Positions 6,001 to 26,335 of a stretch of DNA of 64,000 nt are shown one piece after another. Source of the DNA: Gonatopus flavifemur (lineage: Eukaryota; Arthropoda; Insecta; Hymenoptera; Dryinidae); contig JAFFJZ010000003.1 in assembly GCA_018340375.1 (NCBI GenBank), positions 50,809,006 through 50,873,005 on the forward strand, given 5' to 3'. The notes beneath the pieces are model-generated. The model saw nothing but the letters and a program-made list of their open reading frames with translations, was not told the DNA's origin and did no database searches. How positions within the stretch are numbered: position 1 is the first letter of the stretch; every line of letters starts with the position of its first letter. The position numbers and the translations under genes were made by a program.

Positions 6001-9000
6001 TATACCATTGTTTATTCAACAATTTACGGTGGGAAACAGCGGAATCTTGGATAAAACTGTTATATCTCCACTCAGCAACATTCGTTTCGCTTCTAATTGA
6101 TTCCGAACGACGGAGAGACCACCGGAGAAGACGCAGGAATGAATCTGTTGGGGATCGCGCTTTATAACATTGTTCATTTAATAATTTACGGTGGGAAACA
6201 GCAGAATCTTGGATAAAACTGTTATATCTCCACTCGGCAACATTCGTTCTCTTTCTAATTGATTCCAAATGACGGAGAGAACGCCGGAGAAGAAGCAGGA
6301 ATGACTTCTGTGAGGGATCGCGGTTTATAACATTGTTTATTCAACAATTTACAGTGGGAAACAGCAGAATCTTGGATAAAACTGTTATATCTCCACTCAG
6401 CAACATTCGTTTCCCTTCTAATTGATTCCAAACGACGTAGAGAACGCCGGAGAAGAAGCAGGAATGAATTCTGTGAGGGATCGCGGTTTATACCATTGTT
6501 TATTCAACAATTTACGGTGGGAAACAGCGGAATCTTGGATAAAACTGTTATATCTCCTTTCGGCAACATTCGTTCTTTTCTAATCGATTCCAACTGACGG
6601 AGAGGACGCCGCAGAAGAAGCAGGAATGAATTCTGAGAGGAATCGCGGTTCATAACATTGTTTATTCAACAATTTACGGTGGGAAACAGCAGAATCTTGG
6701 AGAAAACTGTTATATCTCCACTCGGCAACATTCGTTTCCCTTCTGATTGATTCCAAACGACGTAGAGAACGTCGGAGAAGAAGCAGGAATAAATTCTGTG
6801 AGGGATCGCGGTTTATACCATTGTTTATTCAACAATTTACGGTGGGGAACAGCGGAATCTTGGATGAAACTGTTATATCTCCACTCGGCAATATTCGTTC
6901 TCCTTCTGATTGGATCCAAACGACGGAAAGAACACCGGAGAAGACGCAGGATTGAATCTGTTAGGGATCGCGCTCTATAACATTGTTCATTTGATAATTT
7001 ACGGTGGGAAACTGCAGAATCTTGAATCAAACTGTTATATCTGCACTCGGCAACATTCGTTCTCTTTCTAATTGATTCCAAATGACGGAGAGAACGCCGG
7101 AGAAGAAGCAGGAATGAATTCTGTGAGGGATCGCGGTTTAAAACATTGATTATTCAACAATTTACGGTGGGAAACAGCAGAATCTTGGATAAAACTGTTA
7201 TATCTCCACTCAGCAACATTCGTTTCCCTTCTAATTGATTCCAAACGACGTAGAGAACGCCGGAGAAGAAGCAGGAATGAATTCTGTGAGGGATCGCGGT
7301 TTATACCATTGTTTATTCAACAATTTACGGTGGGAAACAGCGGAATCTTGGATAAAACTGTTATATCTCCACTCAGCAACATTCGTTTCGCTTCTAATTG
7401 ATTCCGAACGACGGAGAGACCACCGGAGAAGACGCAGGAATGAATCTGTTGGGGATCGCGCTTTATAACATTGTTCATTTAATAATTTACGGTGGGAAAC
7501 AGCAGAATCTTGGATAAAACTGTTATATCTCCACTCGGCAACATTCGTTCTCTTTCTAATTGATTCCAAATGACGGAGAGAACGCCGGAGAAGAAGCAGG
7601 AATGACTTCTGTGAGGGATCGCGGTTTATAACATTGTTTATTCAACAATTTACAGTGGGAAACAGCAGAATCTTGGATAAAACTGTTATATCTCCACTCA
7701 GCAACATTCGTTTCCCTTCTAATTGATTCCAAACGACGTAGAGAACGCCGGAGAAGAAGCAGGAATGAATTCTGTGAGGGATCGCGGTTTATACCATTGT
7801 TTATTCAACAATTTACGGTGGGGAACAGCGGAATCTTGGATAAAACTGTTATATCTCCACTCGGCAATATTCGTTCTTCTTCTGATTGGATCCAAACGAC
7901 GGAGAGAACACCGGAGAAGATGCAGGGATGAATTCTGTGAGGGATCGCGGTTTTTAAAATCGTTTATTCAACAGTGTACGGTGGGAAACAGCGGAATCTT
8001 GGATAAAACTGTCATATCTCTACTCGGCAACATTCGTTCTCTCCCTGATTGATTCCGAACGACGGAGAGACCACCGGAGAAGACGCAGGAATGAATTCTG
8101 TTAGGGATCGCGCTTTGTAACATTGTTCATTCAACAATTCACGGTGGGAAACAGCAGAATCTTGGATGAAACTGTTATATCTCCACTCGGCAACATTCGT
8201 TTCCCTTCTAATTGATTTCAAACGACGTAGAGAACACTGGAGAAGACGAAGGAATGAATTCTGTGAGGGATCGCGGTTTATAACATTGTGTATTCAACAA
8301 TTTACGTTGGGAAACAGCAGGATCTTGGATAAAACTGTTATATCTCTACTCGGCAACATTCGTTCTCTTCCTGATTGATTTCGAACGACGGAGAGAACGC
8401 CGGAGAAGAAGCAGGAATGAATTCTGTGAGGGATCGCGGTTTATACCATTGTTTATTCAACAATTTACGGTGGGAAACAGCAGAATCTTGGATGAAACTG
8501 TTATATCTCCACTCGGCAACATTCGTTTCCCTTCTAATTGATTCCAAACGACGTAGAGAACGCCGGAGAAGAGGCAGGAATGAATCCTGTGAGGGATCGC
8601 GCTTTATAACATTGTTTATCCAACAATTTACGTTGAGAAACTGCAGATCCTTGGATAAAACTGTTATATCTCCATTCGGCAACATTCGTTCTTCTCCCAA
8701 GTAATTCTCAACGACGTAGAGAATACCGGAGAAGATGCAGGAATGAATCCAGAGGGGGTTCGCGGTTTATAACATTGTTGGTTCAACAATTTACGGTGGG
8801 GAACAGAAGAATCTTGCATAAAACTGTTATATCTCTACTCAGCAACATTCGTTTTCCTCCTGATTGATTCCGAACGACGAGGAGACCACCGGAGAAGACG
8901 CAGGAATGAATTCTGTTAGGGATCGCGCTTTATCACATTGTTCATTCAACAATTCACGGTGGGAAACAGTATACTCTTGGATAAAACAGTTATATCCCCA

Positions 9001-9147
9001 CTCGGCAACATTCGTTGCCCTTCTAATTGATTCCAAACGACGTAGAGAACACTGGAGAAGACGAAGGAATGAATTCTGTCAGGGATCGCGGTTTATAACA
9101 TTGTGTATTCAACAATTTACGTTGGGAAACAGCAGAATCTTGGATGT
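1..9147. repeat. Satellite array, about 163-bp unit, left block
   Basis: Tandem units recur every 162-163 bp, about 56 in this block. Easy anchors in each unit are 'cggcaacattcg', 'ggtgggaaacagc' and 'agggatcgcg'. Units differ by point changes and fall into variants that recur at multiples of the unit, so the array has been rearranged in multi-unit blocks. For example, 532-1378 recurs 2442 bp downstream (15 units), 1825-2196 recurs 4072 bp downstream (25 units) and 2350-2848 recurs 5373 bp downstream (33 units). Both strands are open over long stretches because the unit has few stops and its length is not a multiple of three. I read these ORFs as non-coding. The block ends exactly at the LTR of the inserted retroelement. 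Confidence 0.97.
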
Positions 9148-10213
9148 TGTAACATCTTCGTTACATTCTCATAACTTTGTTTCTTTCATATATGCTACGT
9201 GCACATATACGTATAAATATTATATATACATGTAACATTCTTATTACATTTTCACAATGTTTTTTTCTCTTTCTCATTCATGAAAATATTACCTATCTTT
9301 AATTAGAGTTATGTGCCGTATATGTATTGTGCGTATGTATATATATGTATATGCACATATCTATGCACTATCTTAATCAGAAATATAATAATTGATGAAC
9401 CTTTTTAATACGTATATGTATCCATGGGACATTCTTGAAAGGAAAAATACTATTTTCAGATCACCCGTTATGTGCATAAACACTTCAAATTTAGTAAACA
9501 TATGGGTGACAGTTTCAGAAGGAAACTCCTTCGCACAAGGGAAAAACCACTCATAAAAAATTATGACGAGAACAAAGGTCTGTGTTGTTTCGCTACCTAA
9601 CTGCAACGCGAACCGACACACACCTTAACCCTATGTAGAAAAAACGTGGCCTACGTGCATTTTCAAGAATGACCATTGGTACAAATATAGTTTTTTTTTT
9701 TTTTTAAATATACTTATTTTATTCAAATGATTAGAAGACATACATGCATGTCTATTAGATGTCATCTACAATCAATGTTTGAAATTAGGAAATATTATCA
9801 AAGCATATTAAAACTTTACATTTTATACTAGAGAGATTTAATTGGTCAGTTAAATAATCTTATAAATTCGGATTTCAATTCAAACATTGACTGTAGTTCT
9901 TTCATATGACCAACCAAAATCACTGACCTTTTTAAACATTCTGTCAATTATAGACATTATCAACCCTTTTTTCTCTATACTTCGACAATATTATAAGACT
10001 AGAATTATTACAATAAACAATCAGACGAACTACAAGAATATTGGTTAAGTTTAATATTTTCAATTTCAATATTGTATTTCTTCTACATCTTTGAAAAATC
10101 ATGCGTAAGAAGGTACGTGTGAAAAAAATGCTGAAGTGCAAAGAAAGAAAGGAAATCTATTTCTTTCTTTCTCAAGTAATAGAACTCCCACTTTAGGTCC
10201 ACTGTCAGAATAG

Positions 10214-10253
10214 TATATAAGGACCAGAATGCATGACCCCTGACACATTCAGT
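10214..10253 (+). promoter_or_regulatory. LTR core promoter: TATA box and initiator
   Basis: TATATAA lies at 10214-10220. The arthropod initiator-like TCAGT is at 10249-10253, with its A at 10251 as likely +1. The spacing is slightly longer than the usual 30 bp. Two ATGs at about 10230 and 10234 fall upstream of this start and would not be in the RNA. The same block is present in the 3' LTR. Confidence 0.6.
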
Positions 10254-10337
10254 TTTCAAAGTCAAAACCAAACTATTCTTTCTTCAAACATCCAATTTAA
10301 GACTAAAATCAGCTAACTTCGACCAACACTTCTACCA

Positions 10338-11554
10338 GTAAGTATTACTAACCCCAATTCGTGACATCAAAGATCCTGCCTTCCTTATCGAAATACTGTG
10401 CATAGCCACTATATTTCAACCTCCTTTGGGATAATGTGCATAGTCGCTAATCCCAATTCATTTCCCAATTTCTCTTGGTTCTTGTAGAGATACTGTGCTC
10501 AGTCGCTATATCTCTATTCCTCTTTAGAGATCATGTGCAACAGCCACTAGTCTCTAAAATCCCTAACCAGTCTCTAAACAACTCTAATTTTTCAATTCGA
10601 GATAATGTGCTACAGTCACTAATCTCTAAAACTTTTTCTAATTCTTTCTAATTCTAATTTTTCAATTCGAGATAATGTGCATAGCCACTATATCTCGAAT
10701 CTTTCTTTAATTCATTTTTCCACTCTATAGAGATGATGTGCATAGCCACTAATCTCTAAAACTTTTTCTAATTCTTTCTAATCCATTCTAATTTTTCAAT
10801 TCGAGATAATGTGCATAGCCACTATATCTCGAATCTTTCTTTAATTCATTTTTCCACTCTATAGAGATGATGTGCATAGCCACTAATCTCTAAAACTTTT
10901 TCTAATTCTTTCTAATCCATTCTAATTTTTCAATTCGAGACAATGTGCATAGCCACTATATCTCGAATCTTTCTTTAATTCATTTTTCCACTCTATAGAG
11001 ATGATGTGCATAGCCACTAATCTCTAAAACTTTTTCTAATTCTTTCTAATCCATTCTAATTTTTCAATTCGAGATAATGTGCATAGCCACTATATCTCGA
11101 AACCTTCTTTAATTCATTTTTCCACTCTATAGAGATGATGTGCAATAGCCACTAATCTCTAAAAATTTACTAATCCTTTCTAATCCATTCTAATTTTTCA
11201 ATTCGAGATAATGTGCATAGCCACTATATCTCGAATCTTTCTTTAATTCATTTTTCCACTCTATAGAGATGATGTGCAATAGCCACTAATCTCTAAAACT
11301 TTTTCTAATCTCTCCTAATCCATTCTAATTTTTCAATTCGAGATAATGTGCATAGCCACTATATCTCAATTTCTTTTAGAGACATGACATCCTATGTATC
11401 CTCACCCGAAAACCTAATCCTTTGTCTTTGACATCCGAATAAACCACTAGTTTACTAACCATCATTGTTTAGAAAATACCCCTTTTTTTTTATTTACCAT
11501 CACCGTGTGGTTATCAATTAAACCTTCATTCCAAATTTCCGAATTTGCTTTCAG
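10338..11554 (+). other. Candidate intron inside the LTR (GTAAGT ... TTTGCTTTCAG)
   Basis: The donor CCA|GTAAGT is at 10338 and the acceptor TTTGCTTTCAG ends at 11554, with a TTACTAAC branch-like motif near 11451-11458 and a T-rich stretch between. Removing it joins the last exon base A (10337) to TG (11555-11556). This makes an AUG in frame with the ORF that follows. The exon from 10251 to 10337 contains no ATG, so that junction AUG would be the first in the message. The intron holds the complete 16-hairpin array. The same donor could also serve the acceptors at 22263, 23257 and 24285. Splicing is inferred from sequence only. Confidence 0.6.
10390..11371 (+). repeat. Array of 16 hairpins with constant loop and covarying stems
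   Basis: Each hairpin has a loop close to TGTGCATAGCCACTA flanked by complementary arms. Arms differ between copies yet stay paired: GAAATA/TATTTC (10390-10417), TTGGGAT/ATCCCAA (10426-10456), TAGAGATA/TATCTCTA (10485-10516), TTTAGAGA/TCTCTAAA (10522-10558), then alternating ATTCGAGATA/TATCTCGAAT and TAGAGAT/ATCTCTA types. From 10669 on, the alternating pair repeats every 134 bp (10669, 10803, 10937, 11071, 11205, 11340). The first four copies are not simple tandem duplicates. Paired changes across unlike copies argue for selection on folding of RNA or single-stranded DNA. In the 3' LTR, one copy (about 28190-28225) has several changes and pairs poorly. Confidence 0.85.
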
Positions 11555-12021
11555 TGCCGCGACCAATTATCAAAATCCTAAAGGAACTCGAAATAGAAAA
11601 GAATAGGATCCTCAGGAAACAAAAATTAATAAACACCGAGGGGAATAGATTAAGAAAAAATATCTTATATAGGACAAAAAAGGATATCGAGAGGCTCACG
11701 AGAAAATTCGAGCTCCTCTTGAAGGAACAGAAGGCAGCCCTCTCAGCCCTCCCCAGCCAACGTGTCCGAATTAATAGATCCAATCTATCGAATAAGATTG
11801 TTAAAACTTCCGATAGACCCCAGCTACCCAGGAGGTGTAGCATATGTATTGAATCTAAAAGAGAATTTTTAAGTTGCGTTAACTGTAAGGATTACGGTCG
11901 TTTGTATGCCGAACTAAGTGAGGCCGAAATAAATAAAGTTAAATTTACTGTAAATGAAAAGAAAGAAATCCTTTCGATTAAATATTTCGGTGATTCATAT
12001 AAAAATATATCGGAGTTATAA
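11555..12021 (+). CDS. LTR-encoded small zinc-binding protein, start codon made by splicing
   Basis: The frame is open from before the acceptor (11554) to the TAA at 12019-12021 and has no internal methionine codon. With the upstream exon joined, translation would begin at the junction AUG and give about 155 residues. The first two thirds are rich in Lys, Arg, Glu and Leu and look helical, probably coiled-coil. Then comes a four-cysteine pair C-x2-C ... C-x2-C (Cys98, Cys101, Cys111, Cys114, counted from the open frame start at 11545), of the treble-clef or zinc-ribbon kind, and a short charged tail. I do not recognise the family. The accessory ORF at 22269 has a similar plan. The 3' LTR copy is frameshifted. 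Role unknown; nucleic-acid binding or a regulatory function is a guess. Confidence 0.6.
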
Positions 12022-12042
12022 CCCTTTATATGTATAATTATC

Positions 12043-12052
12043 AATAAATAAA
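12043..12052 (+). terminator. LTR poly(A) signal
   Basis: Two overlapping AATAAA hexamers lie just after the LTR ORF stop. In the 3' LTR they are at about 29512-29521 and would end the element's transcripts, setting the R/U5 border at roughly 12065-12075 in this LTR. A run of A is not needed or seen. Confidence 0.6.
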
Positions 12053-12241
12053 ATTAACATTGTATTATACATTCTTGATCTTCATGAACTTAACCTACAT
12101 CTCACTTTCCATTCCTCTTAGTCCATGCATAACAAACCCTTTATTTTAGTCAGAAAGGAAATTTTATAAATTTCAATTCTGATTCATGTCAACGGAAAGG
12201 TATTTCGTACAGACGGAATCCCTGGACGTGACATAAATTTT

Positions 12242-12258
12242 TGGCGCAGTCGGTAGGA
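12242..12258 (+). other. Primer binding site, tRNA-Ser
   Basis: TGGCGCAGTCGGTAGGA is complementary to the 3' end of insect tRNA-Ser (…CCTACCGACTGCG plus CCA). It lies 8 bp after the LTR end. tRNA-Ser priming is known for the 17.6/297 branch of insect gypsy elements, which fits the family call. Confidence 0.88.
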
Positions 12259-15200
12259 CACGACGAATGGAATAGTGAGATTTCATCGACTTTCGGAGTT
12301 CCATTATCCAGGGTGAATGAAACCTTATTCATCAAATCTGAAAAGTACAAAAAATCAAGCTAAAAAAGACAAAAAATATTATAAATGTATCTAAAGTCTT
12401 TACGTATACCACTCATCTCCTTATAAATGTAGAATAGATGAAGAATTCACTTATCGTAGACCCAAAACATTCAGAATTATTAGATTATTTCCTTATCGTA
12501 GAAGGATCTAAACCATTCGGATGGATACCAAAAGTATCTAAAATATAAAGATCTTGGTTATTCGATTCAAATATCAAATACAGGTCAGTATTAAATTCAG
12601 ATGAAAAGGACTTACCTGATACATCCAGTTTTTGGTATTCGGTAACATAACTTTTCCATTTCTAACAGCAATTGCATATTGAAACGTTGATTTGACGATG
12701 GTCGCCAGAGCAAAACACAGTTGGCGGTACAGAATTTCAAACTCCCTAAGTGATAATCTAGAAAAACACACATAAAACAAGGAATCAAAACGCCAACATC
12801 ATCATAATACACTAACAAAACTGACGATTCAAGTCAGACACCATTATCAATATAGAATTCACACAAACCTGTCACTTCAAATTCATTAAAATCATGCATA
12901 CAATCTCCTATTGAACCATACGCAAGGATAAATATGACATGAAGGTTTACCGAACCATGAAAACTTGAAAATTTACACTTATGACTTGAAAAGTCGCAGA
13001 CCTGAAACACAGTCTCTTCCTTTTCTTCAAAACTGTCACTTCAAATTGACCAAGATTTGAACTTATAATTGAATTCACTTGCACAAAAAGACAAAACCAT
13101 TAAAACACTTCACAACACAAAACTTGAAAAATAATCTTAGCGACTCAACAATTTCAAAAACAAAATACACTTCCCTATAAAATCTATCACCTCAAATCTT
13201 TTGAGATTTGAACCACAAGTTTTAATTACACTACACAGTTGGAAAACACTATTAGAAACACTTCATGACATTAGAATAACTAAAAATTCAAAAATTATTA
13301 TAGCGGATCTGGTAACCGCAACCCAAAAGGACACTTTTCTACAATCCATCACCTCCAATCTTTCGAAATCTGATTTACGAGTCATAATCATTTTGCATAG
13401 TCAAAGAACACAATCAGAAGCACTTTATAACCTTAAAATCATTAACACTTGAGAAATTACTATAGTGAACTTATGAACCGCTACCACAAAATACACTTTT
13501 CTATGAAAATTTTACTTCAAATTCCTTGATATTTAAGAATTCTCACCCACAATACACTTCAAACACTAAACAGTCACTCATTTAATACAACACTACACAA
13601 AACAAACTTCACAGCATTCTGTTGTTGTTGTGACGACTCAGGCTGAACCGATGATTCCTACACCCTCTGTTTGACGGAACAAGGAAAACATCATCTTCTT
13701 CTTGTTTTGTCACCTGTTTGAGATGGATGACTCCTATTCATGTTGGCCAGAATCTTATAATATTGTCCCACGGAAGAGTGAACTTGAAATTTAATACTAG
13801 ATTTCTAAAGGTGATGAACTCTGGAACATGTTCTCTATCCGGTGAATACATTCTATTCAAAGAATCGAATACACTATCATCTGAAAAGTATAACCATATT
13901 AATCTTTCAAGTTAAGTGTTTGAAATTTATTAAAAATTGATACATAAACCTGGCTTAGATATATAGCACGACTTGTCATTATACAATTACCTGATTTAAA
14001 GAACTAAGTGTTGTTAGATGATATATATATATATATCATCCTTCCTTCTTGGCTGGATCATACGAGTTCCTCCTGGTATATTTTCCTCCTCGGTTTTGAT
14101 GGTATGTTCTGGATACCTTCTTTCCGAGACAAGCAATCTTTGGATTCAAATGCTGTGGACGATATACACGTGTGTTAGACTTACATTCAATGCATATTTT
14201 GTTTGACGTAATTCAATTTTTGACCAGGTGTGGATATACGCAGTTCATTTATATCAAACATACTACTTGTTCCACACTCGTTATATCATTAATTGAGATT
14301 ATTGGCTACACAATTACTTTGTTTTCTAATGTAAAAGAAAACAAATTAATAAATTACACACACCCTGTCCTGGTTTAAAGGTTGAAGTTTGACAAACTGA
14401 TATAAATATTTGGTGTTTAAAACACATGCATTTACTCACCGTATACACAATTTTTGGTCTTCCGTACTAGAGTTAAGGCGAATAAAGGTATTTCTCTTTC
14501 ATACATTGAGGTCCAATCTGAAATTTCTTCCATTTTTTTAGATCCTGAAAAGAAAGTAAAAACTTTCACACAAAGGAATAGTCCTTTCAATTATTATTAA
14601 ATTTTTATGAACTTATCTGAAAATAAACTCCTCGCGACGAAAACTACCCCGGTGTCCAGTCTTGAAATTTTTCACTCCGTATTTTATCAATGTTCAATAC
14701 GCTTCATTATTCCTGATAATTTACACTTCACTTAACTACACAATTACATTTGATTACATTGCCTGGTTTGTTTACACGTGCGTCCTGTGGAGGCCGCCAT
14801 CTTGTTTTCTTCTGCTAGCTGAGTCCACGCGCTTGAGAGCGAGAGTGTTCAAAGAAGGTGTATTCGCACCACTGCGGTGTGTTCACGCACCATGAAAGAA
14901 TCTAGTTACTTATAGGGTTTTACTAGCACATGGCCTATCACGTTACGGATGTTATCGGTGATTGTTCGAGGACCTTGAACGTTACTATTCTAATGATATA
15001 CTCTTTTCAAGAAACAAATAACACGAAAATAATATGAGACAAATCTCGGCAAATTAAAATGAGTTAATCATTTCTTTTATACTAGTGCGAAATAACCCTA
15101 ATTCTTGATCTCTTCTGAGTATTGTAAAAATTGTAGTCAAACATACCGCGGCGAAAGGTCAACTTATGATACGGGAAGGATGATGATCATTTATGTTTAA

Positions 15201-15366
15201 TATTGGCGACCTCAACGACAGGTTAACTTTTATAATTCTAAATGTTCCTTGGAAATAATAATTAACGCTAAACAACCACACGAAAGGTTAAATTATATAA
15301 ATGATTCACAAGAATTAGAATTGCACGCGATCAAAACTAGAATCTTTCATAAAAACCTCTACAAAA
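12259..15366 (+). other. Long leader between primer site and gag, no convincing gene
   Basis: About 3.1 kb, followed by the second hairpin set and then gag. It holds only short ORFs without recognisable motifs, on both strands. Many ATGs precede gag, so scanning from the cap could not reach gag easily. Either an unidentified intron removes them or entry is internal. A perfect alternating AT palindrome of about 26 bp (GATGATAT...ATATCATC) lies at about 14016-14041. Packaging and dimerisation signals would be expected here but I cannot locate them. Confidence 0.6.
12860..13600 (+). repeat. Degenerate tandem repeat in leader, about 161-165 bp
   Basis: Related blocks start near 13005-13030, 13168, 13333 and 13494. 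Each begins with a 'cacttttctat'-like word, then 'tcacctcaaatctt' and 'agatttgaa' variants. Copies are strongly diverged with indels. The short ORF at 13201-13452 is a by-product. The spacing resembles that of the flanking satellite, but the sequences are not alike. Confidence 0.45.
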
Positions 15367-15699
15367 CACAGATGTTTTATCCTGTGGTGAAAAAAAAACG
15401 TATAAATTTATACTCCATAAAAAAACGCAGACGTTTTTATCCTGCGGTGAACAAAGAAACGCATAGAATCAAATCTACAAAACGCAGACGGCTTATCCTG
15501 CGAAAAAATTAAATTCCACAAAAAAAAACGCAAACGGTTTATCCTGCGTAAAAATCAAGAATAAGGAAAACGCAGACGTTTTATCCTGCGGAAAAGCAAG
15601 TAAAATAAAAAACAACACACAGACATTACTATCTGTGGAAAATCAAAAAATTTGCAAAAAACGCACACGCACAAAAAAAACGCATGCGGTATTTCTGCG
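15367..15699 (+). repeat. Second hairpin array, seven copies, just upstream of gag
   Basis: Seven short hairpins at 15367-15386, 15426-15446, 15483-15502, 15529-15548, 15571-15590, 15618-15637 and 15681-15699. The usual form is CGCAG-ACGTTTTATC-CTGCG set in A-rich spacers. Two copies switch both arms together to CACAG/CTGTG, one is CGCA/TGCG with a changed inner base, and the last has an altered loop with a kept stem. Paired changes indicate that folding matters. The position, 100-430 bp before the gag AUG, suggests a packaging or translation role. The loop differs from that of the LTR array. An overlapping 87-codon ORF (15249-15512) is best ignored. Confidence 0.75.
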
Positions 15700-15798
15700 G
15701 AAAATAAAGGAACACCAAATTATAAAGACGCATAAAAACCAAAATTTATGACTCATTTAAGAAGAGACGAAAATAAATGTAATAAATAAAGGAACTAA

Positions 15799-17664
15799 AT
15801 GTCGAAATATAATACTCGTAGTCAAACAAAAAATCCACGAGATCAAACCAAAGATACGGACCCTTCCGGAGACCTTACATTAGTTGACGAAACAGAGAAA
15901 GAAACTCTCGATTTTTCTTTAGTCGAGGATCCTTTCAAACCACAAGGATCATTACTACATACTCCTAAAAAGAACCCTTTATTCCTTTCATCAACAGGCC
16001 AATCTTTTTCTGAATTGGATAGTACAATCCAAAACAACTCACAATTGAATGTCACTGTATTCAATAATTCCTCAAAGAATAAAACTTTGATAGATAACTC
16101 ATCGGAAAGTAAAATTACGTCAGATAATTCACCAGACGATCAAGTTTCGTCACAGAAGAATCAGACCTTACCAAATAATTCTCGACATAGAGACTTACTT
16201 GGAGGAAGTTTCATCCATACAACCATTCAAACGAAAGAACCACCAAACGAAATGGCAAATGCATTGAAAGTCCGTGACGTAGTAGGAATGATTCCTATTT
16301 TTTCCGGTTCCCGGAAAGATTGTAATTATAGGGAATTCGCTGCTGCTTGCTTAGACGCGAGGGATATGCTCCCAGCAGATGCCGAAATAGATCTCACAAA
16401 TTTGATTAGAACGCGTTTACGCGATGGTGCACTACAAATAATTAGGAGCGGAAAGCCGACTAACGTGAATGGACTTTTGAAACTTTTGAAGGGAATATAC
16501 GACCCTCAAGATTCGAGTTTAGTATTGAGTGGAGAATTAACTAAATTATGCCAAAAACCGAATGAGGACGTAGCAGATTATTTCAATCGTGCTAGAATGT
16601 TAGGGAATCAAATCATAGAAGCATACAAAGCCGAAAACAATAATGAAATATTGGAAGGGAAAAAGTTAGAAATTGAAGAGGTTTGTTGTAGAGCATTTAT
16701 TCTCGGATTGAATAGCGAAATCTTTCCTTTAATGAAAGAAGGGCTGAATTTCAGTCAAGCTGGTCCAGAAGCCATCAACATAGAAAAGAAATTAGCCACC
16801 CAAAAGGCCCTACGTTCAGCTGCGTTAAAAAACGAATGTTGCGTTCTATGCGAAGATCATAGACATAGATCAAAGGATTGTCCATTGATTGATAAGAACA
16901 CTGTAGAGAAACCTCGGTGTCAAGTTTGTGATCGTAATGGACATGTTGCAAAGGATTGTAGAAGTAACGTGAATAAAATAAACGGGAATCCCGCCAAATG
17001 TCAAATTTGCGATAAAGTAGGACATGAGGCTAAAAATTGCAGGAATCTGAATCAAAATAATCTCAGTTCACTGAATCGTAGCAGAAATATTTGCCAAATA
17101 TGTAAGAAAATTGGACACATAGCCGATGAGTGTAGGTTTTACGCTCCTATTAAAATGACACAAGTCATACGAAAATGCCAACTTTGCGGAATGAATAATC
17201 ATGAAGCGAAAGATTGTAGAGTTTCGAGACCATGCCCTAGATGCGGCATCGCGGGTCACTTAGCAATGAATTGCAATTCTTCAAAAAAATGTCAATTTTG
17301 TCAAAACACTGGACATTATGCCGATACCTGCCCTCAAATTCGAAGTCAAAGAGGACCTCAGTGTCAATTTTGTAAAATTTCGGGACATACCGCAGACATA
17401 TGTCGAAAGTTACAATTCCAAATGAGGAATCAAAATAATTATCAACCTAATAATTCGAATCAAAATAACAATTATCGCGTGAATACTCAAAATCAAAATA
17501 GTAATTACCGTCCGATTAATCAAAATCAACCTAATCATTCACAAAATGTTCAAACCTCGGGAAACTCGCGAGGCCTCCCTACGAGGGAGGCTGGGAATTC
17601 AACAATGAACCCAATACGATCAATTCAGGGAGAGGAAATTTCAGGACAACAAATGTCAAATTAG
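15799..17664 (+). CDS. gag: Gag polyprotein with eight CCHC zinc knuckles
   Basis: 621 residues. The N-terminal 150 are polar and rich in Ser, Asn and Thr. Residues about 150-340 fit a retroviral gag capsid region (helical; 'LLKGIYDP', 'CRAFILGL'). Residues 348-535 hold eight C-x2-C-x4-H-x4-C knuckles in series. All eight have intact ligands. Typical gypsy gags have none to three, so this is an extreme array that resembles CNBP-type proteins. The last 85 residues are Asn/Gln-rich. The AUG follows an A-rich leader with a two-codon upstream ORF (ATG TAA at about 15776). The ORF overlaps pol, which is reached by a -1 shift at residue 588. The protein should bind and package the genomic RNA. Confidence 0.93.
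   Translation: MSKYNTRSQTKNPRDQTKDTDPSGDLTLVDETEKETLDFSLVEDPFKPQGSLLHTPKKNPLFLSSTGQSFSELDSTIQNNSQLNVTVFNNSSKNKTLIDNSSESKITSDNSPDDQVSSQKNQTLPNNSRHRDLLGGSFIHTTIQTKEPPNEMANALKVRDVVGMIPIFSGSRKDCNYREFAAACLDARDMLPADAEIDLTNLIRTRLRDGALQIIRSGKPTNVNGLLKLLKGIYDPQDSSLVLSGELTKLCQKPNEDVADYFNRARMLGNQIIEAYKAENNNEILEGKKLEIEEVCCRAFILGLNSEIFPLMKEGLNFSQAGPEAINIEKKLATQKALRSAALKNECCVLCEDHRHRSKDCPLIDKNTVEKPRCQVCDRNGHVAKDCRSNVNKINGNPAKCQICDKVGHEAKNCRNLNQNNLSSLNRSRNICQICKKIGHIADECRFYAPIKMTQVIRKCQLCGMNNHEAKDCRVSRPCPRCGIAGHLAMNCNSSKKCQFCQNTGHYADTCPQIRSQRGPQCQFCKISGHTADICRKLQFQMRNQNNYQPNNSNQNNNYRVNTQNQNSNYRPINQNQPNHSQNVQTSGNSRGLPTREAGNSTMNPIRSIQGEEISGQQMSN
17559..17591 (+). promoter_or_regulatory. -1 ribosomal frameshift signal between gag and pol
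   Basis: The heptamer GGGAAAC at 17559-17565 is in the right phase of the gag frame (G_GGA_AAC). It is followed after 7 nt by a hairpin with stem GCCTCCCT/AGGGAGGC (17573-17580 and 17584-17591) and a 3-nt ACG loop. The pol frame is open from the slip site onward. G_GGA_AAC is a known retroviral slippery heptamer. Confidence 0.85.
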
Positions 17665-18743
17665 CGTTAGAACGTCATTCACCATCGATTATTGCACAAA
17701 TATTTAAACCCACTAAATTTCTAATAGATTCAGGTGCAGGACCTTGTTTAATAAAAGAAAATGCCATAGGAAATAAAATCAGAATCAATAAAGACGAAAT
17801 ATTACTTTTATCAGGTATTTCTTCCGAAACAGTACCAACGTTAGGAGAAATAATTTTGAACTTTCTAGGGAACATAACTAAGTTTCATGTCGTACCCGAC
17901 GATTTCCCAATAGAACAAGACGGAATTGTTGGAGCTTCTTTTCTCGCTAAACACCGAGCCAAACTCAACTGGGAATCGAATTGCTTGGAAATAGATGATT
18001 CAAAAATTCCCTTCTATATCGAAACTAAAATATATACTATAGCCCCTCGCAATAGAGAAATTATACATGTGAATTTGAAGGAAAATTCTTCGAAAGAAGG
18101 ATATATCCCAAAGTTGAATGCAGGTGAGGGACTCCTCATAGGAAACTGTGTAGTTAAAAACCATAATGGTCAAGCTTTCCTACCAATAGTAAATACCACT
18201 AACGAGAAAATTCGTGTATCAGTTCCAGAATTAAATTTACAAGAAATAGAACAAATTCAAAATTACATTCCTGACAGTAATATTTCGAACAGAAAAGCTG
18301 GCAGAAAGAAAAGGAATCTATTGAAAATCAAGAAAGCAAAGATATGTACAGTTCAAGAAAATGATCGATTCAAACAAGTGATTGATTTGTTGAGGTTAGA
18401 TCATCTGGATACTGAAGAACGAAAGGAAATTGAAATTCTCATCCACGATACCTTGGATCTTTATCATATTCCCGACGAAAAATTAACTTGTACTGAAGTA
18501 CTAGAACATACGATATCCACAACTGATGAAAATCCGATTCATACTAAACAATACAGATTTCCCCCTCTGTTGAAAAATGAAATTATAAAACAAGTCGATG
18601 ATTTATTGAATGACGGAATAATCCAACCCTCACAATCCCCATATAATACTCCAGTATGGATAGTTCCAAAAAAGGCAGATTCACAAGGCAATAAAAGATG
18701 GCGAATGGTCTTAGATTTTCGTACATTAAATGAAAAACAATAG
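17562..18743 (+). CDS. pol: Pol, first part: protease and start of reverse transcriptase
   Basis: The frame is open from the slip site and has no need of its own AUG. The aspartic protease active site Asp-Ser-Gly-Ala is at 17727-17738. The region 'GIVGASFLAKH' (about 17919-17951) is the second protease strand of gypsy elements. From about 18490 the RT fingers begin, with 'VWIVPKKAD' and 'RWRMVLDFRTLNEK'. The frame ends at a TAG (18741-18743). This directly follows a five-A run (18733-18737), and RT homology continues without loss in the frame two positions on. The break is therefore a one-base loss in this copy or in the read, not a true gene end. Confidence 0.85.
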   Translation, partial: KLARPPYEGGWEFNNEPNTINSGRGNFRTTNVKLALERHSPSIIAQIFKPTKFLIDSGAGPCLIKENAIGNKIRINKDEILLLSGISSETVPTLGEIILNFLGNITKFHVVPDDFPIEQDGIVGASFLAKHRAKLNWESNCLEIDDSKIPFYIETKIYTIAPRNREIIHVNLKENSSKEGYIPKLNAGEGLLIGNCVVKNHNGQAFLPIVNTTNEKIRVSVPELNLQEIEQIQNYIPDSNISNRKAGRKKRNLLKIKKAKICTVQENDRFKQVIDLLRLDHLDTEERKEIEILIHDTLDLYHIPDEKLTCTEVLEHTISTTDENPIHTKQYRFPPLLKNEIIKQVDDLLNDGIIQPSQSPYNTPVWIVPKKADSQGNKRWRMVLDFRTLNEKQ

Positions 18744-21700
18744 GGAACGCGTATCCCTTACCAAATATCACCGAAATATTAGATCAATTAGGTGGAGCTA
18801 AATACTTTAGCACTTTCGATTTAGCTTCTGGTTTTCATCAAATCAAAATGAGCGAGAAGGATAGACATAAAACTGCATTTTCAACTCCCCACGGTCATTA
18901 TGAGTTTTTGAGAATGCCTTTCGGGCTTAAAAATGCTCCTGCTACCTTCCAACACTTGATGGATATAGTTTTGACCGGATTACAAGGAATCGAATTATTT
19001 GTTTATTTAGATGACATAGTTATTTACGCGAAAACACTTTCCGAACATAGGAAAAAATATTTAAATTTAGCTCATAGATTACGTCAAGCAAATCTCAAAT
19101 TACAGCCTGATAAATGCGAATTTTTACGACATGAAGTTTCGTACTTAGGACATCAAATTACCGAGAACGGATTAAAACCAAATGATAAAAATATCGAAGC
19201 AGTCAAAAAATTCCCGCGACCTAAGAACGTGAAAAATATCAAACAATTTCTGGGTTTAGCCGGATATTATAGGCGATTCATACATAATTTCTCAAAAATC
19301 GCTTTACCATTGACTAAACTTTTGAAAAAGGATGCCCCTTTTTCATGGAACGAAGAGCAAAACGAAGCTTTCGAAATACTAAAAGACAAATTATGTCAAG
19401 AACCCGTATTGCAATACCCAGATTTTGACAAACCCTTTTTACTTACAACAGACGCTAGTGGCTATGCCATTGCTGGTATATTAAGCCAAGGGCCTGTAGG
19501 TAAAGATAAACCTTGTGCGTACACATCTAGATTATTGAATGAAAACGAACGTAAATATAGCACTTATGAAAAAGAGGCACTCGCTATCCTATACAGTGTT
19601 TCTCAATTTCGACCATATCTTTATGGACGAGAATTCACAATAGTAACCGATCATAGACCTTTAGTATGGATGCGTACGGCAAAAGACCCTACGTCTAGAC
19701 TAACTAGGTGGCGTTTGAAATTGGAAGAGTATGACTTTGATATACTCTACAAAGCGGGCAAAACCAACGTAAACGCCGACGCCCTGTCTCGTAATCCATC
19801 TGATGATTCTGAAAAAATTATTGAAGAGACAAAAGATGAAATGACTGTCAGAGAGAGACAAAACATCCTGGAGAAAAGAGAAAATCGCGATTGTATGCTT
19901 GAAAACATTAAAACAATTTATACCCATGAAAATACGCCAAGACGATCCACAAGAACTCCAAGATTAACGGAGAAAGGTTGTCAATACCGCGAAGAGATTA
20001 TAAGGAAAAAGAAGAGACGCTTAACCAACAACCATGAAAATAATGATTATTCCGATTCGACTGAAGACGAACTCGTTGAGAACGACAAACACGATAAATC
20101 GACTCCTAAAAACACGAAAAAACCACCCGATAAAAGAATAACAGAAAACGATAATTCATCATCTAGTGAATTCGGGACAACACGCGATAATGATAATAAA
20201 CTAAAACTTGAAACCTCTAATGGAACAAACGATGGGGACATAATATCGGAAAATAATGATCCAATTCCCCACAATATTGAAAATTCTCATGATTTTTCAT
20301 CAATAAACGCTGAACAACCACTAAATACAACAAATTCTCTACAACAGGAACATAGTGACTTAACGCCAAAATCTCTCAAAAAACCCCCTGATAAAAACGT
20401 TATTTTTCATGAAGGAAATGATGACCGACTAAATTTAGAGAACAATTGGGACCCTTTGGATAACATTAAAGATACTGAAGAATCTGATACGGATGAATCA
20501 ATAATCGATAGGGAAATTGAAAATTTTGAGGCATCTAAAGGGAAATTGCGATACGGGAATAATATTTTCGAAAATCGAGATCAACTGTGGATGAAGAGAG
20601 ATAATTACTTGTTCTTTCTTGACGATGAAGGAAAGCCCATTGATAGTATCACAGAATTGTTTGCAAAACAACACTATATAGATTACTTTGGAAAACTTGA
20701 TATAGGAACTTGCAAAATGATAAATAAGAGTAATAGATGGTATATCGGGTTATGTCTGGTGCCCTCAAAGACAATATTGAATCCTGAAGAAATATTCGAA
20801 AATTTAGGAAACTCATTGTTAGAGCTGAGAAAATTACTCCAAGAAAATAGAATTACCAGCTTTAGTGCCTCTGTATTAGAACTAGCAAATATATCTTGGA
20901 TCAGAATACTCGATAAATTTAGACTAATTCTTGGAAAATCCAACATCAAAATAACCTTCTGTTTGGGAATAGTGGAAAAACCATCGGTGTCACGTAGAAG
21001 TTCAATAATTGAAGAGGCGCATTCTTCGCCCATAGGTGGACATAAGGGAGTCACAAAAATTTATAAAAGAATCAGAACAAATTATTTCTGGGAATATATG
21101 AAAGAAGATATTCAAAATTTCATACAACAATGTTTACAGTGTAAATTAAAGAAACTGATGAGACATAAAATTAGGCAACCCATGACAATTACTGACACCC
21201 CAGGTTCAGCTTTTGAAAAATTAGCTCTCGATGTTGTCGGGCCTTTCTACCCCGAAACAAAAAAGGGAAATCGTTATATTTTAACGATGCAATGTTTACT
21301 TACTAAACATTGCACAGCCGCTGTTATGAAAGATGCAACAGCGCCTTCAATCGCTGATGCTTTTTTGAAGAGGTTCGTTTGCATCTATGGAACTCCGAAA
21401 ATCGTACTAACTGATCAAGGAACAAATTTCTTATCCAAATTAATGAAAATTCTCGCGAAAAAATTGGATATCAGACAAATTAAAACAACTGCTTTCCACC
21501 CTCAAACAAACGGCTCACTCGAAAGAACACATATAGTTCTTGTAGAATACTTACGACAATTTATCGACAAGGATTCTGAATGGGATGATTGGGTAGAACT
21601 AGCGATGCTTTCGTACAACAGTAGTGTTCATGAAGGTACACAGAGAACACCCTATGAATTAGTTTTCGCGAAAATTCCAACTCTTCCCTCCAATCAACCT

Positions 21701-22036
21701 TTACCTGAATATGAGCGTTTGGATACATACGATGACTATTTAATACGACTTTTATCTAGGTTAGATAGTTTACAAAAAGAGGCGAAACTAAACTTAGAGG
21801 CAGCAAAACGAAAATCTAAGGAATATTATGATAGGAAAATAAATCCCATAACACTGGAAGCAGGTAATTACGTATTCATCAGGAAGGGAATGAAAACGGG
21901 AAAATTAGGGGATCCAAATGAAGGACCGTATAAAATTTTAGAAGTGATTGATGACAAAAACGTAATACTGGAAATTGGAAGGAAGGAAAGATTGATATCC
22001 ATCGATAGAATCATACCCACTAAAATACATCAGTGA
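18737..22036 (+). CDS. pol: Pol, second part: RT, RNase H, integrase
   Basis: The conserved frame starts just after the A-run; the first ATG is at 18848 and residues here count from it. The RT catalytic Tyr-Leu-Asp-Asp is at 54-56, RNase H 'TDASG' at about 201-205, and the thumb and 'FLGLAGYYRRFI' lie between. Residues about 320-640 form an unusual long linker. It is charged and rich in Ser, Asp, Glu and Asn, contains two 'KKPPDK' copies, and ends in a poorly conserved stretch. Integrase follows: His/His/Cys/Cys zinc region at about 725-765, then catalytic Asp795, Asp856 and Glu892 (D-61-D-35-E). A C-terminal beta domain (GPYKILEVIDD) ends it. No chromodomain is seen. The linker adds roughly 300 residues compared with usual insect gypsy pol. 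Confidence 0.93.
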   Translation, partial: TIGNAYPLPNITEILDQLGGAKYFSTFDLASGFHQIKMSEKDRHKTAFSTPHGHYEFLRMPFGLKNAPATFQHLMDIVLTGLQGIELFVYLDDIVIYAKTLSEHRKKYLNLAHRLRQANLKLQPDKCEFLRHEVSYLGHQITENGLKPNDKNIEAVKKFPRPKNVKNIKQFLGLAGYYRRFIHNFSKIALPLTKLLKKDAPFSWNEEQNEAFEILKDKLCQEPVLQYPDFDKPFLLTTDASGYAIAGILSQGPVGKDKPCAYTSRLLNENERKYSTYEKEALAILYSVSQFRPYLYGREFTIVTDHRPLVWMRTAKDPTSRLTRWRLKLEEYDFDILYKAGKTNVNADALSRNPSDDSEKIIEETKDEMTVRERQNILEKRENRDCMLENIKTIYTHENTPRRSTRTPRLTEKGCQYREEIIRKKKRRLTNNHENNDYSDSTEDELVENDKHDKSTPKNTKKPPDKRITENDNSSSSEFGTTRDNDNKLKLETSNGTNDGDIISENNDPIPHNIENSHDFSSINAEQPLNTTNSLQQEHSDLTPKSLKKPPDKNVIFHEGNDDRLNLENNWDPLDNIKDTEESDTDESIIDREIENFEASKGKLRYGNNIFENRDQLWMKRDNYLFFLDDEGKPIDSITELFAKQHYIDYFGKLDIGTCKMINKSNRWYIGLCLVPSKTILNPEEIFENLGNSLLELRKLLQENRITSFSASVLELANISWIRILDKFRLILGKSNIKITFCLGIVEKPSVSRRSSIIEEAHSSPIGGHKGVTKIYKRIRTNYFWEYMKEDIQNFIQQCLQCKLKKLMRHKIRQPMTITDTPGSAFEKLALDVVGPFYPETKKGNRYILTMQCLLTKHCTAAVMKDATAPSIADAFLKRFVCIYGTPKIVLTDQGTNFLSKLMKILAKKLDIRQIKTTAFHPQTNGSLERTHIVLVEYLRQFIDKDSEWDDWVELAMLSYNSSVHEGTQRTPYELVFAKIPTLPSNQPLPEYERLDTYDDYLIRLLSRLDSLQKEAKLNLEAAKRKSKEYYDRKINPITLEAGNYVFIRKGMKTGKLGDPNEGPYKILEVIDDKNVILEIGRKERLISIDRIIPTKIHQ

Positions 22037-22263
22037 AAATCGAATTCATTTCCATTTGAACATCATCGGATGGATGTTGCATGAATTTTACGTGGACATT
22101 ACAAGATGTTACAGAAAAGTTATATGTTATATAACATTTTATATTAAATAGATTTGTGATTTCCATGTCGTGTAACATCTGCATGTAATGCTTACGAAAA
22201 TTTACACCCCATACACTCCCATTTTCAATATGAAATTTTGAAAAATTTCTCCTTTTCTTTTAG
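22037..22263 (+). other. Spacer with splice acceptor before accessory ORF 1
   Basis: AT-rich, with no gene. It ends in a strong acceptor: a pyrimidine run CTCCTTTTCTTTTAG, with AG at 22262-22263, six bases ahead of the ATG of the next ORF. This is the pattern expected for a spliced subgenomic mRNA. Confidence 0.6.
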
Positions 22264-22268
22264 AAAAG

Positions 22269-22844
22269 ATGTCTCAACAAAACATTATGCCTGCAGAGGA
22301 ATTCCCACCTCTATCAAGACGAGCACAACAGCTACACAAATGGCATTTATTGCACTTATTGGGCCAGCCCAAAGCTGTCCAAAAGGCTGCAATTGCCGAG
22401 GCAGTAGCTCGCGATCAATATTTCAAAAGAAACCAAAAAATTGCCAAACTCGCTGCTCAAGAGCAACGGGAAACCGAAGCTTATGTAGCGAAATTGAAGG
22501 AAAATCAAGGCCCAAAACCCGAGGGAACCGAAGGGGAATCCTCTGTTGATCGCCCGAAGGTCCTCTCCAAGGTCCAAATTCCGGAACCTGGAACTAGCTC
22601 TACCAATAAAATGGAAGAATACGATCCACTCGACAACTGGAGGGTCAATACTACCGTCGCTTGCAAATCAAAGAAATCTATCTACCCGCTAATGTCACTT
22701 AAGATCTCTAAACCAATTGTCAATCGCACCAAATTTTGCAATTATTGCGGCATTAATTTGAAAAGCATTAGAGATTATATCGGAATTTTCGATTTTTGTC
22801 CCAAGTGCGGCCGTGATAGCCGCGCGTATTTACAAACCGCGTGA
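22269..22844 (+). CDS. Accessory ORF 1: coiled-coil plus zinc-ribbon protein
   Basis: 191 residues from the first ATG after the acceptor at 22263. Residues about 15-85 are Ala/Gln/Lys/Glu-rich and look helical. Residues 85-110 are Pro/Gly/Glu-rich. The C-terminal end has a zinc-ribbon pattern, C-x2-C (157, 160) ... C-x2-C (177, 180), then ten residues. The plan (helical basic N-part, C-terminal four-cysteine module) matches that of the LTR ORF, so the two may be ancient duplicates, though I see little direct identity. I do not recognise the family. It lies where complex retroviruses keep regulatory genes, between pol and env. An overlapping 103-residue ORF in another frame is a shadow. Confidence 0.65.
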   Translation: MSQQNIMPAEEFPPLSRRAQQLHKWHLLHLLGQPKAVQKAAIAEAVARDQYFKRNQKIAKLAAQEQRETEAYVAKLKENQGPKPEGTEGESSVDRPKVLSKVQIPEPGTSSTNKMEEYDPLDNWRVNTTVACKSKKSIYPLMSLKISKPIVNRTKFCNYCGINLKSIRDYIGIFDFCPKCGRDSRAYLQTA

Positions 22845-23257
22845 GAAAAAAAACACAATATATACATATATTTTTTTTTTCCTTTCTCTTCATTTTTTCA
22901 TATATATATACATATATGCTATATTTTACCTTTCTTTTTTTATATATATATATATATTAGTGTTTCTCATTTTGATATATGATATAAATATATATACTTT
23001 TAAGCTCTTATATAATTTCATACAATTTACACGCTTTATGTATAAATGTTCATAAAAAGCAAGCATTTTTTTTTTAATAAACCTCACATTTTGCCTCTAA
23101 ATGTTTCTTGTTCATGTTATTCAAAACCTAACACGGCCCAAACCATTTCCTGCCATAGCTCTAACCATGTGTTAATGTTTTTGAACAATAACATGATTTA
23201 GTGAATGACAATATATAGCTATTTATTTATTTCTTTTCTCTTTCTTTTGTTTACTAG
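22845..23257 (+). other. AT-rich spacer with TA microsatellite and splice acceptor
   Basis: It contains runs of T and (TA)n, especially 22895-22960. A T-run and an AATAAA (about 23078) could end a transcript. It ends in TTTCTTTTGTTTACTAG with AG at 23256-23257, a good splice acceptor for the next ORF. The ORF frame continues upstream of the acceptor only by chance. Confidence 0.5.
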
Positions 23258-23468
23258 AAAAAAAAAAACACAAATAGTCACACGAATAAACCGACCAAAG
23301 ACCACCGACTCAAACCCGAGACACATATTGAATACATATTCGAGGGACAAGCCCTGGAAGCCCAAACCCTGCTCTCGAATATTTTCAACTGATCAACGAA
23401 AACTTCGTTCATCACATCTCCACGCTTACCGTTCATCATTCAAATACTGTAAATCTGATACTGATATT

Positions 23469-23747
23469 ATGGAAACTGAATACTGTAGAAAACTCATCTG
23501 GAGAGGAATAAATATTAAAGGGATGAACAATAGAGAATTCAATACACTGAGATGTACCAATGAAGATCATAATGATTGGACAAAATTACAAAATCAAGCT
23601 AATCATCATGATCTAGATGCATATGATTTTTGCTTCAAATGTGTATGTGGAGAGGATCCACAAGAGTGGGAATTTCGCAAAGAAGTTCTATCAATAGCAA
23701 TCGCTCGTACTTACCATTTGAAAACTCAACGATTCATCAACAATTGA
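23469..23747 (+). CDS. Accessory ORF 2: small cysteine-containing protein
   Basis: 92 residues from ATG 23469. This is the first ATG in the 211 bases after the acceptor at 23257, and this choice avoids the hydrophobic stretch read from 23205. The frame is open upstream as well, so a longer product through another start is possible. Cysteines cluster as 'CFKCVC' near residues 55-60, with others at about 6 and 29. No signal peptide or membrane segment remains with this start. The family is not recognised. Its place between accessory ORF 1 and env suggests a third spliced product of the element. Confidence 0.5.
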   Translation: METEYCRKLIWRGINIKGMNNREFNTLRCTNEDHNDWTKLQNQANHHDLDAYDFCFKCVCGEDPQEWEFRKEVLSIAIARTYHLKTQRFINN

Positions 23748-24285
23748 CTCGAGTTGATTATTAGAAATAGATTGAACATGAATTAGAGTATGATTTATAC
23801 ACGTATTTTAGGAAAGTTTTTATATATAAACAACCTCTTCTTTTCTCTGAAATTCATTGAAAGACATGTATATATTCGTAACGATCAATGAACTTGAGTC
23901 CAATATCGGCCCAAATCTGGCCCTGTATTGGTCAGAATGACAGAAATGAATCATTTAGAATATAGAACCCAACTCTCTTTGGAAATGCATATTCACGTAT
24001 ATATGATTGGTATATATGTGGGTATCGTGACCCAAATAGGGCTTAGAAACTAATTTAAAACATAGATATATAGATTTACTTTTAATATATATTATACAAA
24101 CTTTGGTCCAGCGTCGGCCCAAGACCGATCCAAAATAGGCCCAATTGTAGCTCAAACGCAAATCATAGAGAAATTAATCAGTTAAGTCGGATATATTTCT
24201 CGTCCAGATATTCTATCTAAATTCATCATTAAATGAAAAATTTTCTTTTCTCTCTTGGAAAATATTCTTTTTATTATATTTTTAG
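23748..24285 (+). other. Spacer before env, with splice acceptor
   Basis: AT-rich, without a gene. Two short stretches, near 23900 and 24105, share 'ggcccaa' motifs. A candidate acceptor TTTTTATTATATTTTTAG ends at 24285, and the first ATG after it is the env start at 24317. Confidence 0.45.
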
Positions 24286-24316
24286 CCACAACAACGAGTC
24301 TCCACCAATCAACATC

Positions 24317-25225
24317 ATGTTGTCATCATGGACAATACTCATTCTCATCTCAACGAGATTCCTGCTTACCCAATGCCTAGTTGGATATGATTGTGGAACT
24401 CCGAATCTGAATATTACGACCCTATCATTACTCAATGTAGGAGAATGTTCTATTCCCCAGATACAACCGAATATTACCCGAACAAACGTCCAACTACTCC
24501 AGTTATCAAAATTCGAAAAAACCCTTGTACGTCAGTGTAAAATCACTATTCATCGAACAATACAGAGATGTGGAATGTTTTCACATACTTCTGCTGTTCA
24601 TAATGGTATTGCTGAATACATCACCGAAATTGGCAAAACAAAATGCGAAGAAATGCATAAACTCGGAACACTTTATCTCTCGCATAACAATATCATTGCG
24701 GGACTAAGAGTCAATGCAACTAGTATCAGACAAACTCTATTGGCAGGAAGCGTAAATTCCGATGGAAAGTGCGACGGATCCTCCTATTCCGACCCATATG
24801 GCTCCTGGGATGACGTAATCGTGCAAGCCCTGATAAAAGTCACGCTAAAATCTTATCAAACACCTGTAAATTTAGAAGATGACAAAATTCACCTACAATC
24901 CAATGTGATTTGTCAACATAGTGAAGGAAGTTGTATTGATAGCGAAGGAGGTTACACGTTTTGGGACCCTATCCCACGAGACACTTGTCATTTCAACGAT
25001 TACGACATCATATATGAAGGACCTGCTCATAAAATGAAAGACGAAACTACCGATGGTACTCAAACCATCTATTCCTTAACAGCAAAAGACACCACCTTCG
25101 CGTTAGCGAAACCGGCGAAGAAATGCTGTGTGGATATACCCTTATCAGAACTGAACATCCAAAGCTCTTCTTCTTGGAAGGAAGTAATCTACTCACAACG
25201 AAACGACTTGGAACCAAAGACTTAG
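24317..25225 (+). CDS. env: Envelope glycoprotein, N-terminal part
   Basis: Starting at 24317, the first ATG after the acceptor at 24285, gives a clean signal peptide (LSSWTILILISTRFLL), which the in-frame ATG at 24233 would not. The mature start 'GYDCG' followed by an Asn-Ile-Thr-Thr glycosylation site, many further Cys and several N-x-S/T sites mark a viral surface protein. From memory, the Tyr-Asp-Cys ... Asn-Ile-Thr-Thr start resembles glycoproteins of chuviruses (Jingchuvirales) and related captured env genes, not the baculovirus-F type normal in errantiviruses. The conserved frame leaves this ORF near 25121, after a short A-run; the tail to 25225 is out of frame. Confidence 0.7.
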   Translation: MLSSWTILILISTRFLLTQCLVGYDCGTPNLNITTLSLLNVGECSIPQIQPNITRTNVQLLQLSKFEKTLVRQCKITIHRTIQRCGMFSHTSAVHNGIAEYITEIGKTKCEEMHKLGTLYLSHNNIIAGLRVNATSIRQTLLAGSVNSDGKCDGSSYSDPYGSWDDVIVQALIKVTLKSYQTPVNLEDDKIHLQSNVICQHSEGSCIDSEGGYTFWDPIPRDTCHFNDYDIIYEGPAHKMKDETTDGTQTIYSLTAKDTTFALAKPAKKCCVDIPLSELNIQSSSSWKEVIYSQRNDLEPKT

Positions 25226-25560
25226 ATATGTTCGCATATATAAATTCGAAATTTGTATATGTCGAAAGGCATATTCGAACCCAAATGAATAACTTGTATA
25301 CCGATATACTTGCACACCGTTGTCAATTAGAACAACAGGTGTTAAGAAATTCATTGACTAATGCAATTCACACACCTGATGAATTCGCGTACCATTTGAT
25401 GAAAGGACCCGGTTATATGGCCGTACCGTCTGGAGAAGTTATCCACATCATAAAATGCACTCCAGTGGATACAAAAACCCGACGCTCGACCACCTGTTAT
25501 AACGAATTACCAATCACGGTTGGAAATCATAGTTTTTCCTTAAACCAAGGACACATGTAA
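25123..25560 (+). CDS. env: Envelope glycoprotein, middle part (shifted frame)
   Basis: It carries on the env protein one frame over: 'CGYTLIRTEHPKLF', then helical sequence with 'YVERHIRTQMNNLYTDILAHRCQLE', and 'MKGPGYMAVPSGEVIHIIKCTPV' with a paired Cys in 'TCYNELPI'. These are the segments that made me think of the chuvirus-type fold (class III fusion-like). The frame is lost again at a five-T run (25533-25537). The ATG at 25123 is not a real start. Confidence 0.65.
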   Translation: MLCGYTLIRTEHPKLFFLEGSNLLTTKRLGTKDLDMFAYINSKFVYVERHIRTQMNNLYTDILAHRCQLEQQVLRNSLTNAIHTPDEFAYHLMKGPGYMAVPSGEVIHIIKCTPVDTKTRRSTTCYNELPITVGNHSFSLNQGHM

Positions 25561-26303: not shown

Positions 26304-26335
26304 CTCTTGTGCCAAATCTCCCCTGAAGATTTGTC

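Follow-up and report, generated by a model that had tools for sequence, protein, structure and literature searches.

A predicted two-exon gene within a long terminal repeat of an endogenous retrovirus (Ty3/gypsy type) in Gonatopus flavifemur

Can a reading frame that lacks a methionine codon obtain its start codon by splicing? The question is raised by an open reading frame (ORF) in the long terminal repeat (LTR) of an endogenous retrovirus, found in the 64,000-nucleotide stretch of Gonatopus flavifemur DNA that was analysed here (the window). The frame extends over 182 codons from stop to stop (11473-12021) and contains no ATG, as the original prediction had said. Our best reading of the sequence, and one which we hold to be fairly probable, is that the LTR carries an accessory gene whose protein would be made only from spliced RNA, with an AUG made by the splicing itself.

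According to this reading, the RNA would start near 10251, and a leader exon without AUG would be spliced from 10337 to 11555, where its terminal A and the TG of the second exon would complete the AUG. The AUG so formed would open a basic protein of 155 aa, and the RNA could end by way of AATAAA, which starts 22 bases past the stop. The same leader may also be joined to other acceptors, giving ORF-A, ORF-B and env. Unspliced RNA would retain the intron, with its 21 AUGs and 16 hairpins, and would have no AUG for the LTR protein. We infer that the splice occurs, that the protein is produced and that it has the role of an accessory regulator. The coordinates of the features are collected in Table 1.

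Table 1 Features of the element and of the predicted LTR gene (positions in the window)
Feature	Positions	Strand	Remarks
5' LTR	9148-12233	+	3086 bp, TG...CA; preceded by target duplication ATGT (9144-9147)
TATA-like TATATAA	10214-10220	+	Read by eye
Initiator-like TCAGTT	10249-10254	+	Read by eye; predicted transcription start 10251
Predicted leader exon	10251-10337	+	No ATG; 3' end TCTACCA, last base A
Predicted intron	10338-11554	+	GTAAGT...TTTCAG; 21 ATGs
16-hairpin array	10385-11372	+	Near-constant core TGTGCATAGCCACTA, outer stems vary; inside the predicted intron
Exon 2, coding part	11555-12021	+	TG would complete the AUG; then 154 codons and stop
AATAAA signals	12043-12052	+	At 12043 and 12047, 3' of the stop
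ORF-A with acceptor 22264	22264-22844	+	Acceptor 3rd of 922; ATG 22269, 191 aa; sub-threshold zinc-ribbon matches
ORF-B with acceptor 23258	23258-23747	+	Acceptor 8th of 922; first AUG 23469, 92 aa
env with candidate acceptor 24286	24286-26303	+	Acceptor 91st of 922; first AUG 24317, 302-codon env frame
3' LTR	26612-29702	+	3091 bp
3' LTR copy of exon 2	29023-29241	+	Junction bases identical; frame closes after 72 codons

The element and its internal genes

The endogenous retrovirus is of Ty3/gypsy type, measures about 20.5 kb and carries accessory genes. As in the Metaviridae (Ty3-gypsy), its LTRs have TG...CA ends and are accompanied by a short target duplication (ATGT), and protease, RT, RNase H and integrase follow each other in this order. 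When aligned, the 5' and 3' LTRs differ by nine substitutions and by seven gap positions in three gaps. The surroundings of the LTRs consist of a 163-bp satellite. The segment 26351-26611, which adjoins the 3' LTR, comprises the first 39 bp of an LTR followed by a 222-bp satellite stretch that is identical to 8926-9147 in the left flank; a copy of the left flank together with the 5' LTR may have entered the 3' LTR, or the assembly may be at fault here. Two more retroelement coding regions, BEL/Pao-like by eye, lie at 46495-51173 (+) and 54697-60137 (-). Rfam gave no match within the window.

The domains RVT_1, RT_RNaseH, Integrase_H2C2 and rve were predicted in separate open frames, and a match to RVP (19.2 bits) was just below the cut-off of 20.7. 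Among the 120 pol matches listed, the best had 79 % identity and some were named 17.6 or 297; 21 of the 24 with organism names were, by name, from ants, bees, wasps or sawflies, and the remaining three, from frogs or a pseudoscorpion, had 43-49 % identity. On the strength of these names a hymenopteran host was judged likely. With RT as bait, used as a single sequence or as an alignment, no match was obtained in viral contigs. Pol is split between two frames, the change of frame falling within RT, and env is broken into pieces; the copy is thus either defective or affected by base-run errors in the assembly.

Gag (15799-17664) has eight zinc knuckles by the pattern C..C.{3,4}H.{4,5}C and none by a stricter pattern, and Pfam scores three stretches; eight knuckles seems many for a Gag protein. 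A leader of about 3.5 kb (12242-15798) separates gag from the presumed primer binding site. A set of six hairpins, different from that of the LTR, is situated just upstream of gag (15367-15637; stems such as CGCAG/CTGCG and CACAG/CTGTG), and a minimal ATG-TAA frame (15777-15782) is directly 5' of the gene. In unspliced RNA, 75 ATGs would precede the gag start at 15799, and the best AG that would make the gag ATG the first of the message scores -8.7.

Env (24233-26303, in pieces) matches PF24664, the Monjiviricetes fusion glycoprotein, with E values of 3.6e-94 and 1.8e-79, and by sequence its product is a chuvirus-like glycoprotein. One study did not find that Gypsy elements had clearly captured such glycoproteins (PMC10084718), and a later paper mentions type III fusion glycoproteins in elements of the gypsy and BEL groups (PMC13172572); for the latter reason the env is not claimed here as new.

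When the LTR leader is joined on paper to the acceptors at 22264, 23258 and 24286, the first AUGs of the resulting messages are the starts of ORF-A, ORF-B and the env frame, respectively. The AG at 24208 outscores that at 24286 and would make 24233 the first AUG of env. Among the four ORFs predicted to be joined to the leader, the LTR ORF is the only one that takes part of its AUG from the acceptor. None of 42 candidates proved to be a relative of ORF-A, which gave no real match to the LTR protein either.

The splice junction and reading frame of the LTR

A single LTR contains the TATA-like and initiator-like sites, both predicted exons, the stop and AATAAA; the initiator-like site is TCAGTT at 10249-10254. 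In a scan of 10251-11554, the donor CCA/GTAAGT at 10338 scored 3.4 compared to -0.7 for the next GT, in agreement with the proposal that it is the only good upstream donor and that it leaves an exon ending in A. The acceptor TTTGCTTTCAG ends at 11554, and exon 2 opens with TG at 11555, these two bases being the second and third of a codon in the frame 11473-12021. Joined, A and TG give an AUG that spans the junction, as in splice-made start codons of the gypsy env type, and that is in frame with the ORF. With no ATG in 10251-10337, it is also the first AUG of the predicted message, as had been anticipated, and it opens 155 codons. The junction bases recur in the 3' LTR (27806/29023), where the copy of the ORF is closed early because an A run differs in length by one base.

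The weights used for scoring splice sites are rough. By these weights, donor 10338 shares rank 11 with its twin in the 3' LTR among the 677 GTs in 10251-29700. The original prediction had placed an acceptor directly before the ORF; it is present there, but its score is mediocre (40th of 922 AGs in 10400-29540, and 44th of 932 in another scan), and the AGs scoring above it in the same stretch include 11757, 10528 and 10488. It is conceivable that this acceptor serves a different purpose, i.e. that a longer protein has the ORF as its last exon, with the donor and AUG of an internal gene joined to the acceptor of the 3' LTR and the A+TG being incidental. The internal region does have better-scoring donors, e.g. 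18124, 14228 and 12584, and the acceptor, which is in frame with the ORF, requires a single base from whichever exon is joined to it. However, the 5' LTR copy, in which the frame is open, has the leader as its sole upstream exon, and the 3' copy is frameshifted. We regard a last exon of this kind as unlikely.

How readily an in-frame A+TG arises by chance depends on which sites are counted. In 10251-12021, TG follows the AG at 2 of 88 AG sites, and a single one of the 88 (11555, with 155 codons) gives a first AUG that opens at least 100 codons, the next best opening 27. Over the longer stretch 10400-29540, a junction AUG is possible at 36 of 922 AG sites, and three junction AUGs open at least 90 codons, two of them inside pol (18379 and 20973). 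In-frame A+TG was found at 3 of 487 AG sites of seven other frames, which overlap so that some of these AGs are counted twice, compared to 1 of 36 in the frame of the LTR ORF. The chance of an in-frame A+TG is about 0.6-1.3 % for one fixed acceptor and nears 20 % if any of the 36 AGs of the LTR ORF frame may serve. For the absence of Met from the ORF by itself, P is about 0.08. Donor, acceptor, phase and lack of other AUGs had been said to agree in a way that is hard to ascribe to chance. The donor, the phase, the AUG-less leader and the Met-less ORF are indeed present, but the wording on chance was too strong, since the acceptor is mediocre and junction AUGs are not rare (36/922).

The same frequency of junction AUGs speaks for a rival explanation, in which translation begins at a non-AUG codon, or another leader is used, and the A+TG is fortuitous. 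Unspliced RNA has a GTG exactly at the junction (11554-11556), which might serve as such a start. However, 21 intron AUGs precede this GTG in unspliced RNA, and scanning to a non-AUG start is therefore unlikely; taken as a whole, we consider this explanation very unlikely.

The frame of the LTR ORF is non-random. Its 182 codons were reached in none of 1000 shuffles of 11372-12070 and in none of 500 shuffles of the whole LTR. The codon score per codon was +0.15 in the ORF frame, compared to -0.35 and -0.63 in the other two frames, and +0.18 and +0.21 in the env piece and ORF-A, respectively. In 90-nt windows the score was about 0, 0 and -0.12 from 11473, 11503 and 11533, and +0.13 from 11563. 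The pre-acceptor stretch 11473-11553 alone scored +0.07; within the ORF some middle windows were at zero and the final window at -0.31. The ORF is also overlapped by an antisense frame of 121 codons, which speaks against the reading; the codon scores of this antisense frame range from -0.39 to -0.01. Past the junction, the 154 codons contain no Met, and the three ATGs of exon 2 before the stop are all out of frame.

Alternatively, the ORF may be unexpressed, as a relic in decay or as a frame that arose by chance; this would be consistent with the pieces into which pol and env of this copy have fallen, with the frameshift of the ORF in the 3' LTR and with the lack of relatives of the LTR protein among 106 candidates and in viral contigs. 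The shuffles, of which 0 of 1000 attained the length of the ORF, and a codon score near those of env and ORF-A argue against it, and we find such a relic or chance frame rather unlikely. The accessory gene with a splice-made AUG remains our preferred reading, and its predicted product is considered below.

The predicted protein and the hairpins of the intron

The LTR protein would have 155 aa and be basic, with a pI of 10.0 and 37 K+R compared to 19 D+E. Its single-sequence structure model has a mean pLDDT of 68 and a pTM of 0.34. Counting from the junction, residues 2-63 are confidently modelled as a helix, which speaks for the reading (the block pLDDT is 88 over residues 1-10 and 95-98 over 11-60), and the weak C-terminal part of the model contains two Cys pairs, CSIC and CVNC. 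Matches to an export-signal pattern, which is common in helices, are found at residues 4, 5 and 44.

In the protein database, none of 106 candidates was a relative of the LTR protein at E <= 0.1; solved structures, viral contigs and NCBIfam gave no relative, and Pfam gave one sub-threshold match (E 0.73). The same protein database yielded 7908 scored relatives of the pol region, and as it is rich in pol relatives yet has none for the LTR protein, there is some evidence that the latter is not widespread, although a fast-changing relative without a common five-residue word would escape the protein search.

All 16 hairpins of the intron fold singly, with energies of -5.7 to -13.7 kcal/mol. Base pairing was scored in a manually set register, MAFFT having misplaced one arm. 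In the 11 distinct hairpins, two-sided changes that keep the pair are found at outer-stem positions 3, 4 and 6, those at 3 and 4 in one hairpin each; pairing is kept in 8 of 11 at stem position 6 and in 10 of 11 at position 1. When the 3' arms were re-dealt, the observed sum was reached in 1 of 5000 cases with 16 rows and in 25 of 5000 with the 11 distinct rows, the changes not being independent, since the copies arose by tandem duplication. A folding scan (200-nt windows every 150 nt) gave z of -3.2 or lower in six windows of the two LTR arrays and likewise in windows elsewhere (e.g. 26901, 21201 and 16851), so that a low z is not specific to the arrays.

The TGCATA core of the hairpins presumably resembles the motif of the gypsy insulator. 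In the insulator a short motif, repeated 12 times within the 5' UTR, is bound by Su(Hw) (PMC4276936), whereas the present repeats are hairpins with some compensatory changes and lie in the predicted LTR intron. The array as sole packaging signal was set aside, as the 3' LTR repeats it and it would mark spliced RNAs too.

Compared to Rev, Rex and Rem, the predicted anatomy has an ORF whose AUG exists only after splicing and hairpins in the intron; the array is also in the 3' LTR. By analogy with Rev/Rem-type systems, the array would be retained only when the 5' intron is unspliced, in an RNA unable to make the LTR protein, which suggests a feedback. Against a simple feedback, the 3' LTR repeats the array, so that other RNAs would carry it unless they were spliced there too. 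In a still more specific form, the LTR would be a self-contained gene of the Rev/Rex type, the basic coiled-coil protein with its two Cys pairs binding the 16-hairpin array of the removed intron and favouring export, translation or packaging of unspliced RNA. We consider this form quite unlikely; if it were true, every solo LTR would be a working copy of a regulator gene.

Comparison with known systems and meaning of the finding

MMTV sag is an accessory protein coded in the LTR. The present ORF is similar in this respect; MMTV belongs to another virus family. Rem of the Rem/RmRE system of MMTV derives from doubly spliced RNA and enhances the export of unspliced RNA. The Ty3/gypsy element Cer1 is a further parallel: its CERV is a novel protein from spliced mRNA, with a predicted leucine zipper in the N-terminal half, and is required for the export of unspliced RNA (PMC10309623). 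CERV differs in having five exons and frames in common with the polyprotein (PMC10309623).

The creation of a start codon by splicing is known in kind. In the Drosophila errantivirus gypsy, also a Ty3/gypsy element, the AUG of env is made by splicing: the 5' site in gag contributes the AT, and the 3' site in env the G (PMC2585583). In the present LTR gene, by contrast, the AUG would be divided as A and TG, the donor lies in a leader without AUG, the donor, intron and ORF are within one LTR, and the protein is not env. The errantivirus Springer has, in an excerpt of PMC13097621, the same GTAAGTG donor and a spliced 297-nt fragment without AUG, but there the donor is 43 nt downstream of the 5' LTR, and the excerpt makes no mention of an LTR gene. 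Among the matches listed from the open-licence literature, no insect LTR-internal ORF with a splice-made AUG was found.

What is unusual in the element of G. flavifemur is that the donor, the intron and the ORF for a basic non-env protein are all in one LTR, and that the intron has 16 related hairpins. If the reading is true, a repeat that is copied at each insertion, and possibly left behind as a solo LTR, would be a complete spliced gene, and the start codon of this gene would exist only in the spliced RNA. In its layout the insect element would then match complex retroviruses, and it would offer a defined protein and a defined set of RNA hairpins for tests of one against the other.
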